NCBI RefSeq assembly: GCF_000092645.1
Contig: NC_014165.1
Location: 434,001 to 498,000 of the forward strand
Reading direction: 5' to 3'
Length of the DNA stretch: 64,000 nt
Origin: Thermobispora bispora DSM 43833
GTDB taxonomy: Bacteria; Actinomycetota; Actinomycetes; Streptosporangiales; Streptosporangiaceae
The notes under the pieces were generated by a model, which was not told where the DNA came from, searched no databases, and saw only the letters and a list, made by a program, of their open reading frames with translations. Position 1 is the stretch's first letter. Every line of letters starts with the position of its first letter. This document shows positions 58,956-62,016 of this stretch, in pieces. The position numbers were made by a program, and so were the translations under genes.

Positions 58956-60131
58956 ATGGAAATCAGGGACGCGGCCCGGCCGCTCGACGGCGCGGCCGTA
59001 TCGGCCTTCCTGCGCTCACTGCCCGCCCGGCCAGACCTGCTCGGCCTGGGCGAGGCCATGCACTTCGTGACCGAGCTGGGCGAGGCGCGTAACGCGATCT
59101 TCCGGCACCTGGTCGAGCACGAGGGCTTCCGCGCGTTCGCCATCGAGAGCGACTGCCTCAAGGCCCTCCTGGTCGACGAGTACGTCACCACCGGCGCCGG
59201 CGACCTCGACGAGGTCATGGAGCGCGGCTTCAGCCACGGCTTCGGCGCCTTCCCCGCCAACCGCGAGCTGGTGCGCTGGATGCGGGAGCACAACGAACGG
59301 CACGGCGACCGGCTCAGGTTCTTCGGGATCGACGGCCCGCTGGAGTACTGGGCGGCGAGCCCGCGGGAGGCGCTCGCCGGCCTGTACGCGCTGGTCGACG
59401 GCCCGCCGTGCTCCTGGGAGACGATCGACGAGCTGCTCGGCCCCGACGCGCGGTGGTCGGACGAGGCCACGGTGCTGGACCCCTCCCGGTCGATCGGCCA
59501 GAGCGACGACGCCCGGCGGCTGCGGCTGATCACCGACGACCTGATCACGCTGCTGGAGACCCAGGCGCCGCGGCTGAGCCCGGCCGACCGGGAGCGCGCG
59601 GAGCTGTACGCGCGGACCGCCGTCGGCCTGCTGCGCTACCACCACTGGATGGCCGACACCTCCCCGGCTCGGGTGTCCCGGCTGTCGGCGGTGCGGGACG
59701 CGCTGATGGCCGCCAATCTGCGCGCGATCGCCGCCCACGGCCCGGTCCTGGTCTTCTCCCACAACCTGCACCTGCAGCGGAGCGGGAGCACGATGACCTT
59801 CGGTGACCAGGAGCTGGCGTGGTGGAGCGCGGGCGCGCTCGTCTCCGCGCACCTGGGCGACCGGTACGCGTTCATCGCCTCGGCCCTGGGCGCGCTCGGT
59901 GACGATGGCCCCCCGCCGGGCACCCTCGAGGGCGCGCTCGCCACCCTCCCCTGGGAGCGCGCGCTCGCCGATGCCCGCGCCCTCGCCGCGGCGGTCCCGG
60001 GCGCCGCCCCGCGCACGTCACCGCACTACGCCTACTTCCCCCTCGACCCCGCCCAGATCGGCACGGCCGACGGCGTCCTCTTCCTCGGCAGGGTGCGCGT
60101 CCCGGACTGGCCGCGCGGTCCGCGCGAATGA
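58956..60131 (+). CDS. Erythromycin esterase-family protein
   Basis: 391 residues. The Ere-type site is GLGEAMHFVTE (Glu33, His36), with AIESDCLKALLVDEYV and, later, VLVFSHNLHLQRSG and DRYAFIASALG. Known members hydrolyse the macrolactone ring of erythromycin; many homologues have other, unknown activities. The ATG at 58956 lies at or just before the predicted transcription start, implying a leaderless mRNA. Under control of the divergent MerR regulator. Confidence 0.85.
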   Translation: MEIRDAARPLDGAAVSAFLRSLPARPDLLGLGEAMHFVTELGEARNAIFRHLVEHEGFRAFAIESDCLKALLVDEYVTTGAGDLDEVMERGFSHGFGAFPANRELVRWMREHNERHGDRLRFFGIDGPLEYWAASPREALAGLYALVDGPPCSWETIDELLGPDARWSDEATVLDPSRSIGQSDDARRLRLITDDLITLLETQAPRLSPADRERAELYARTAVGLLRYHHWMADTSPARVSRLSAVRDALMAANLRAIAAHGPVLVFSHNLHLQRSGSTMTFGDQELAWWSAGALVSAHLGDRYAFIASALGALGDDGPPPGTLEGALATLPWERALADARALAAAVPGAAPRTSPHYAYFPLDPAQIGTADGVLFLGRVRVPDWPRGPRE

Positions 60132-60319
60132 CGGCTCTTCCCGATGGTTTCCGGCTCCGCCGCCGATCGTCTCCTTCTTGGGTCAGCGGAGAAATCGAGT
60201 TGATCGACATAGGCGGCGAAGGCCACGATTCGGTGCAGGCCGTCCTGGACGCGCGTGCGGTGAGCACACGGGGATCCGCCGGTCGGGCCGGCGAGTGCCG
60301 AGCAGGAAGGCGAGCGGAA

Positions 60320-60907
60320 GTGGTCGACACGGCATTGGCGACCGATCCCGCGGCGATCGAACGCGCGGTGCGCGACGAACCGGTGGGCACGACGTGGCCG
60401 TGGAACAGCGGCCCGAAGGCCATCGAGGCGTTCCTGCACCGGGTGGTCGACGCGATGAACGGCATGCGGGAGCTGTGCGTCGTGGAGGCCGAGTTCGGGC
60501 ATTACGGCTCCGGATACGCGTCCTTCGTCGACGTCTTCCTCACCAAGCGGGACGGGTCGCTGCGCGAGACCTTTGCGGACGGCTGGACGAGGTTCACGGG
60601 ATGGACCCTGGCCCTGTGCCGGCTCGCGCCGTTCGCGGTGCTCTTCGGCAACAGCCGCGTGTGGTATGGGCCGCGCCCCGGGACCCGGTCCTCCAGCATT
60701 CCCCACCGGGACCGGTTGCCGGAGGACACCGTGCCGGCCTCGCGGACGGAGCTCTGGGAGCTCGCGGAGCTGCTCGAGGGGTACGGCTTCGCCTTCCTCG
60801 ATCCGGAGATCCTCATGCTGCCCATCGATCCCACGCTCGAGATCGACACCACGCTCGGCGAACGCCCGTATCGCGTGTGGGACGCCTGGTTCCACTGGGC
60901 GGACTAG
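60320..60907 (+). CDS. Conserved hypothetical protein
   Basis: 195 residues from GTG 60320 (AGGAAGG upstream). An in-frame ATG at 60128, overlapping the esterase stop, is possible but adds a poorly conserved-looking stretch. Mixed alpha/beta: FLHRVVDAMNGMRELCVVEA, YASFVDVFLTKRDGSLRETF, LEGYGFAFLDPEILMLPIDP. No family recognised. The added N-terminal part contains IELIDIGGEGHDSVQAV, similar to the start of the DUF4440-like gene at 61420. Confidence 0.62.
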   Translation: MVDTALATDPAAIERAVRDEPVGTTWPWNSGPKAIEAFLHRVVDAMNGMRELCVVEAEFGHYGSGYASFVDVFLTKRDGSLRETFADGWTRFTGWTLALCRLAPFAVLFGNSRVWYGPRPGTRSSSIPHRDRLPEDTVPASRTELWELAELLEGYGFAFLDPEILMLPIDPTLEIDTTLGERPYRVWDAWFHWAD

Positions 60908-60937
60908 CGGCTCACCCGGGGGTCCGGGCGGCCGGGG

Positions 60938-61252
60938 TCAGTGGAGCAGCTTCAGCCCGACGACCCCGCTGATGATCAGTGCCAGGCAGATCAGCCGCCC
61001 GGCCGTGGCCGGCTCGCCCAACACGACCATCCCGTACACGGCGGTGCCGACCGCCCCGATGCCCACCCACACGGCGTACGCGGTGCCGACCGGGATCGAG
61101 CGCAGGGCGTAGCCGAGGCCGAGCATGCTCGCCGCGAGGGAGAGCACGAACAGCGCGGTGGGTAACGGCCGGGTCAGGCCCTTGGACTCGGCGAGCGCCA
61201 CGGCCCACGCCGTTTCGAGCATGCCGGAGACGATCAGGACGACCCACGCCAT
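60938..61252 (-). CDS. sugE: SMR-family guanidinium exporter (Gdx/SugE)
   Basis: 104 residues, four helices. Essential Glu13 in helix 1 (SGMLETAWAVAL), the Gdx-type ALRSIPVGTAYAVWVGIG segment and GMVVLGEPATAGRL. Gdx proteins export guanidinium in exchange for protons. The 5' leader contains a guanidine-III riboswitch-like sequence, which supports this over a multidrug (EmrE-type) assignment. Confidence 0.88.
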   Translation of the reverse strand: MAWVVLIVSGMLETAWAVALAESKGLTRPLPTALFVLSLAASMLGLGYALRSIPVGTAYAVWVGIGAVGTAVYGMVVLGEPATAGRLICLALIISGVVGLKLLH

Positions 61253-61280
61253 GGCTCAGGGACCTCCACGAGACGGCCAT

Positions 61281-61326
61281 CTCCCGCCTCATCTTCTCCC
61301 GCCGGGTACGACGCACTCGTACCGGC
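61281..61326 (-). promoter_or_regulatory. Guanidine-III (ykkC-III) riboswitch candidate
   Basis: Read on the minus strand from 61326: GCCGG-UACGAGUGCGUCGUA-CCCGGC, then GGGAGAAGAUGAGGC. The hairpin with its UGCGUCGU loop region, the CCCGG arm and the following GGAgAAGA segment match the guanidine-III consensus as I remember it from the Thermobifida riboswitch (ACGAG, UGCG, CGUACCCGG, AAGA). It lies 28-74 bases before the sugE start. GAUGAGGC can pair partly with the loop to close the pseudoknot. The RBS follows at about 61264. Confidence 0.7.
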
Positions 61327-61419
61327 CCGTCCGGCATGAATGATCGCGTGTTGTCCGTTGTCTCCGGCTCCGGGCTGACGGTCATGGTCCGGGAGCCGCC
61401 GGGGAATAGGTTGATCGAC

Positions 61420-61815
61420 ATGGGTGGCGAGCACGACGATCCGGTGCAGGCGGCGATCACGGGGGAGATGCGCCTGCTCGAGTGGGAGGTCCGCTCGTCC
61501 GCGGTGCTCCTGGGCGAGCTCCTCGACCCGGAGTTCACCGAGATCGGGGCGTCGGGGCGCCTCTGGGACCGGCATTCGCTGATCAACGCGCTGACCCAGG
61601 AGTCCGATGCGCCGCCGTACCGGATCACGGTGAGCGAGATGAAGGGCAGGCTGCTCGCCCCCGGGATCGTCCACCTCACCTACGTCTCGGACGAGAACGG
61701 CCGGCGGGCCCGGCGCAGCTCCATCTGGCGGCGCTCCGAACAGGGGTGGCGGCTCTACTTCCACCAGGGGACGCTGCTCCCGCCGCAGGAGCCGATGCCC
61801 GCCGACCTGGGCTGA
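61420..61815 (+). CDS. DUF4440/SnoaL-like NTF2-fold protein
   Basis: 131 residues from ATG 61420; an upstream ATG at 61336 would extend into the riboswitch-bearing leader of the divergent gene. NTF2-like features: LLEWEVRSSAVLLGELLDPE, FTEIGASGRLWDRHSLINAL, TYVSDENGRR and WRLYFHQGTLLP. Small cone-shaped domain of unknown ligand. Confidence 0.8.
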   Translation: MGGEHDDPVQAAITGEMRLLEWEVRSSAVLLGELLDPEFTEIGASGRLWDRHSLINALTQESDAPPYRITVSEMKGRLLAPGIVHLTYVSDENGRRARRSSIWRRSEQGWRLYFHQGTLLPPQEPMPADLG

Positions 61816-62016
61816 CCGCCGGCGCGCGGCGGAGGCGCCCCCTGCCGGCCGTACCGGGGCGGACGTGCCGGGATCACCGGCCCGGCCGTACCGGCGGGCG
61901 TCGATCCGGGAAGGCGAAGGCTGGCCGGGGCGGGAGCCGGCCGCGGTCGTGCTCTGCCCGGCGGCCGCTCACCCAGCCCGGCCCCGGACCGCGCCTTGTT
62001 CGAACACGAATCCGAG

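Follow-up and report, generated by a model that had tools for sequence, protein, structure and literature searches.

A degenerate guanidine-III aptamer homologue upstream of gdx in Thermobispora bispora, and its probable loss of switching

The gene gdx of Thermobispora bispora DSM 43833, which encodes a small multidrug resistance (SMR) protein, is preceded by a degenerate homologue of the guanidine-III (ykkC-III) aptamer, and the reading that we favour, with somewhat better than even confidence, is that this leader goes back to a translational ON switch of the guanidine-III class that once controlled gdx, and that it has probably ceased to switch. The homologue covers 40 nt (61286–61325, minus strand) of the window, the whole 64,000-nucleotide stretch of DNA that was analysed (bases 434001–498000 of a genome assembled as one contig, 4,189,976 bases long), and was recognized by covariance model RF01763, by a model built for this lineage and by alignment to a related genome, G056. 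At the level of sequence its homology to the guanidine-III aptamer is secure, and the leader is a variant that departs from several defining features of the class and is not classed here as a functioning member.

Detection, homology and gene context

A cmscan search of window positions 60900–62000 matched the leader to RF01763 at 61340–61283 on the minus strand with 23.3 bits (E 0.019 over 4227 families), below the gathering score of 36 bits for that family. The match is accordingly missing from a scan of the whole window at gathering thresholds; it is also missing from a search of the genome itself at E <= 0.001, and at E <= 1 the leader is the top one of five RF01763 matches in the 4.19 Mb (E 0.0176). 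Our lineage model, R1, which was built from the leaders of 53 relatives with the window sequence left out, scored the leader at 28.1 bits (a rough E of 0.0055), the best match in the genome, with the runner-up at 22.2 bits. Over-threshold RF01763 matches occur in 64 of 100 genomes of the host's taxonomic family, and weak ones of 23–27 bits are common across the family genomes searched, so that the covariance-model score alone is unconvincing. What lifts the leader above chance is its position on the correct strand, just upstream of gdx, and its alignment from P1 onward with the canonical aptamer of G056, which occupies the same place before gdx and scores 46.5 bits with RF01763. Along this alignment, which opens at the first C of P1 and takes in the rest of the leader and gdx, the two DNAs are identical at 360 of 401 positions. 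The likeness to guanidine-III proposed in a sequence-only reading of this DNA is thereby borne out, and the Infernal search named there as a check did return the family, albeit beneath its gathering score. If the favoured reading is right, the case shows that a homologous, correctly placed, sub-threshold match need not be a working switch. Our literature search found no paper joining ‘Thermobispora bispora’ with ‘riboswitch’. For guanidine-I the genome yields a single 32-nt match, which at 19.8 bits falls short of the cut-off of 63 and was disregarded.

The placement before a Gdx-type exporter, also part of that reading, holds as well. The 104-codon gdx/sugE gene (60938–61252, minus strand) has its start codon 33 nt downstream of the end of the aptamer homologue, and its product matches PF00893 at 75.9 bits, with SugE as the best NCBIfam model (112.7 bits, below the cut-off of 126). 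Among solved structures its best relatives are 6wk5 and 8vxu (E about 1e-24), both of which we take to be Gdx-Clo; the molecule name given for 6wk5 is ‘Multidrug resistance protein, SMR family’. Judged by these matches, the product belongs to the SMR family and is a candidate member of the Gdx type, with guanidinium export as a putative function. In a protein search, gdx-like matches at E <= 1e-15 were found in 267 of 341 genomes of the host's family, the best outside the host's own genome being that of G056 (92% protein identity), and the divergence from this orthologue (dN 0.048, dS 0.172) indicates that gdx is under constraint and that the gene appears to have been kept. Between gdx and an erythromycin-esterase-like gene lies an open frame of 259 aa (60128–60907) that matches nothing in Pfam or NCBIfam at E <= 0.001; G056 does not have this stretch at the corresponding place.

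Structurally, the leader retains much of the guanidine-III architecture. Residue numbers follow T. fusca (Thermobifida fusca) as given in PMC5696562, which also describes guanidinium as bound by G7 and G17 and stacked on C6, G17 as contacting the ligand through its Hoogsteen edge, an A5–A19 contact, and a core between P1 and P2 that is >97% conserved. All elements of the leader lie on the minus strand. The P1 helix is present, formed by a 5' strand CCGG (61322–61325), whose bases are the first to align with G056, and the pseudoknot partner CCGG (61302–61305). The conserved ACGA (A5–A8, 61317–61320), which holds the pocket residues C6 and G7, does not follow P1 directly: one U (61321), inserted relative to G056, stands between them. 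P2 would be formed by GCGUCGU (61308–61314), which holds the pocket residue G17, and AUGAGGC (61286–61292), which contains C36U (61291) and C39G (61288), and a Shine-Dalgarno-like GGAGG, assigned on sequence alone, lies at 61263–61267, 10 nt before the start codon. Conserved in the leader are P1, A5-C6-G7-A8, G17, U18-A19-C20, UACCCGG, G29, A32–A35 and G37, and against G056 the changes are the U between G4 and A5, A27G, C31G, C36U and C39G, together with a downstream linker that is also unlike that of G056. C36U turns the pocket pair G17–C36 into G.U and C39G turns G14–C39 into G.G, leaving P2 with six of its seven standard pairs, one of them a G.U; the imperfect pairing of the 3' strand noticed in the sequence-only reading is real.

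Compared with the guanidine-III riboswitch of T. fusca (RF01763, crystal structure 5NWQ), the leader has in common P1 CCGG/CCGG, ACGA, GUACCCGG, AAGA and a downstream SMR exporter gene, and differs in the extra U between P1 and A5, in G17.U36 and G14.G39, and in its sub-gathering score. The distance from aptamer to Shine-Dalgarno is 18 nt in the window, and from aptamer to ribosome binding site 16 nt in T. fusca, according to PMC5696562.

Folding calculations and a proposed mechanism for loss of switching

In the folding calculations, which take no account of pseudoknot, triplex or ligand, the window leader is the most hostile to the aptamer of the 76 distinct leaders compared (14 of the 100 collected loci, including those of G093 and L101, were off-pattern and dropped, the remaining difference being duplicates), and its Shine-Dalgarno is exposed. 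The inserted U is predicted to pair with A19 and to close a 7-bp hairpin, GGUACGA-gugcg-UCGUACC (hairpin 1, 61305–61323, minus strand, whose exact form stands at one place in the genome), that occupies C6, G7 and G17. C39G disrupts P2, whose 3' strand is then free, in the predicted fold, to pair along its full length with CCGUCUCGU. The resulting second hairpin, AUGAGGCGG-gagaugg-CCGUCUCGU (61268–61292, minus strand), has 9 bp and a predicted −12.7 kcal/mol, against −9.4 kcal/mol, with mismatches, for its equivalent in G056. Energetically, P2 minus hairpin 1 comes to +7.5 kcal/mol in the window leader, whereas the other leaders have a mean of −1.1 (sd 2.6, maximum +4.0), and forcing P2 to form costs the whole leader 21.7 kcal/mol, against a mean of 10.3 (sd 4.0, maximum 20.5) in the others, so that the margin over the next leader is only 1.2 kcal/mol for this second quantity. 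The Shine-Dalgarno is unpaired with probability 1.00, against a mean of 0.52 in the others, of which two of 75 reach 0.95 or more. At 55 C the folding result is the same.

Single changes introduced into the G056 leader shift its P2 probability from 0.645 to 0.002 (the insertion), 0.000 (C39G), 0.063 (A27G), 0.202 (C36U) and 0.93 (C31G, an increase), and the downstream tail of the window copy alone also takes it to 0.002; the starting value is itself sensitive to the bases included, being 0.974 with six more 5' bases. Since 36 of the 75 other leaders likewise have a P2 probability below 0.01, this measure cannot tell dead from working leaders.

We set out the favoured reading as a sequence of conditional steps. 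A guanidine-III translational ON switch would have controlled gdx in the ancestral state; in this class, according to the review PMC12186494, guanidine stabilizes a pseudoknot, with the result that the Shine-Dalgarno is freed and the mRNA protected. Once a U had entered between P1 and A5, it could pair with A19, P1 and the ACGA pocket strand would become a single hairpin, and its pairs A5–U18, C6–G17 and G7–C16 would use up the guanidine-binding residues. C39G, for its part, would break P2 and strengthen the hairpin of the P2 3' strand with CCGUCUCGU just upstream of the Shine-Dalgarno. Such a two-hairpin fold would leave the Shine-Dalgarno unpaired whatever the ligand, and gdx would consequently be translated constitutively, with no response to guanidine. 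From this computed fold we infer that guanidine binding has probably been lost and that gdx expression is probably constitutive. The riboswitch candidate of the sequence-only reading thus stands in its class and its gene context, but the sequence does not support a working switch: the inserted U, C36U and C39G fall in the conserved core and in P2, and the predicted fold consumes pocket residues. A stronger claim, which we put forward tentatively and think rather unlikely, is that the leader was rebuilt and not merely broken, the insertion and the P2 change each favouring a non-aptamer fold and together giving a fixed, translation-permissive leader.

Regarding how an intact switch turns on, the calculation is uninformative, since forcing P2 in nine leaders raised Shine-Dalgarno exposure in three (L039, L046, L054); exposure did not change in L036 and fell in five (the window leader, G056, L035, L037 and L048). 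In L035, L036, L037 and L046 the P2 3' strand could form 9 bp with the bases that separate the Shine-Dalgarno from the start codon, and in L046 both sides have changed in step, which makes this complementarity a possible expression platform in that subgroup. As a general platform it was rejected: across the 76 leaders own pairs were no better than swapped ones, and 28 of 200 shuffles were as good or better. The window leader is without it (−5.5 kcal/mol, rank 55 of 76).

Alternative readings of the leader

The most serious competitor, to which we give roughly half the credence that we give to loss of switching, is that the leader is a weaker but working guanidine-III riboswitch, in which the inserted U is bulged, G17.U36 leaves the Hoogsteen edge free and the G.G of P2 is tolerated. 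Most pocket residues are indeed retained, and a wobble partner need not abolish the ligand contact that G17 makes through its Hoogsteen edge (PMC5696562). Position 36 is C in 43 of 44 distinct leaders and U only in the window's own, and when the genome collection was scanned with a U36 pattern, 103 stretches came back. One stretch, that of Blastococcus sp. TF02-09 (L190), has a gdx match at E <= 1e-5 in the fetched DNA (gdx context was followed for that one stretch, some matches sit close to the edge of the fetched stretch, and the scan may omit the window's genome). This leader, at L190:6319–6367, precedes gdx with G17.U36 in an aptamer that is otherwise intact (48.4 bits with R1), which speaks for the wobble being tolerable; a class of U36 variants was discarded as a candidate, a gdx match in the fetched DNA having come from this one of the 103 stretches.

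Mismatches in P2 also occur among relatives, where G14–C39, the pair that is G.G in the window leader, is absent in two of 53 (L019 and L067, both A.C) and C15–G38 in 12 of 53, and by P2 probability the 36 of 75 other leaders noted above are equally unfavourable. Two further changes are likewise not confined to the window: C31G is found in five other leaders, and a third strand one nt shorter (GU for GGU) is common to the window leader, G056 and several other relatives. P1 CCGG/CCGG is invariant in the 53 relatives, partly by construction, since the pattern used to pick them already prescribes some of the motif; the aptamer of L101 has GCGG in place of CCGG. Against a working variant stands the insertion, which sits between G4 and A5, at the A5–A19 contact and in a core that PMC5696562 gives as >97% conserved. 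An insertion of 1–3 bases between P1 and ACGA is found in the window leader alone among the 100 collected loci (two of them the window's), and the predicted advantage of hairpin 1 over P2 is larger than in any of the 75 other leaders. Scored with R1, the window leader is the lowest of the 51 loci with a match (28.1 bits against 43.9–72.5, many of the latter being training rows).

That the palindrome GGTACGAGTGCGTCGTACC, which lies between gdx and a divergent DUF4440 gene, is instead a DNA operator for a repressor seems to us improbable. Its perfect 7-bp arms, its 5-bp spacer and the divergent genes on either side would suit an operator, and sites with two or fewer mismatches are in excess in the genome (23, against 5 for a reversed control pattern); at least six of those 23, though, belong to another palindrome, the exact palindrome is found at one genomic place only, its arms are, but for one base, riboswitch sequence that G056 has too, and a scan for the sigma-70 consensus returned no promoter-like site nearby. 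The other palindrome, GGTACGGC-nnn-GCCGTACC, appears among these near matches at six places in G000 C1 (658038, 970129, 2950856, 2990107, 3038393 and 3703408).

That the aptamer has changed its ligand specificity is just as improbable: changes at the pocket pair G17–C36 and at C31 are what such an aptamer might display, but the gene still encodes an SMR exporter whose nearest relatives are of the Gdx type, this set of changes recurs in no other collected leader, and the insertion is predicted to favour a hairpin over any pocket. Chance resemblance, which the abundance of RF01763 matches of about 23 bits in family genomes might suggest, is contradicted by homology with the canonical aptamer at the orthologous place in G056 and can be given next to no weight.

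Related leaders and the DNA upstream of P1

Evolutionarily, three leaders of gdx orthologues carry the aptamer in three states, intact in G056, altered in the window and eroded in G093, a genome of the same genus as G056. With the G056 leader (L033, L205) the window leader shares the orthologous gene, the two-nucleotide GU third strand and CCGUCUCG before the Shine-Dalgarno; the canonical 7-bp P2 and core belong to G056, and the DNA upstream of P1 is unrelated. Like the window genome, G093 (L034, L206) retains gdx (87% identity) behind an altered aptamer, one that has eroded past recognition by R1 (no match at E <= 1) in the same surroundings as in G056. The DNA upstream of P1 in the window genome aligns with neither G056 nor G093, and the upstream region was therefore exchanged on some branch. 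The DNA that lies upstream of the gdx leader in G056 has a single long counterpart in the window genome, 70% identical and far from gdx, besides short matches, and two outgroup stretches (L207 and L208) match around gdx only.

If the leader has indeed been rebuilt, it would, together with the intact copy of G056 and the eroded one of G093, mark steps in the loss of a riboswitch whose gene is retained: orthologous gdx genes at 87–92% protein identity would carry intact, altered and eroded copies of one riboswitch, and switch loss with gene retention could be dissected change by change. A damaged guanidine riboswitch before a retained gdx has a parallel in the gdx leader of E. coli ZX-1, for which PMC13064478 reports a 20-bp deletion together with constitutive gdx expression; that case differs in being a deletion in a resistant strain, in belonging to another riboswitch class and in having its expression measured, by RNA-seq with n = 1. 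Within the host's family, gdx without a guanidine-III switch is not rare, since 13 of 64 gdx loci have no leader match to R1, the remaining 51 having one. Leaders that lack the riboswitch before gdx paralogues at L041, L043, L044, L049 and L055 have a similar sequence of their own, like GATCCAATCTGATTATGAAAAyCATT, which we take to resemble a metal-regulator box of the Zur/Fur type.
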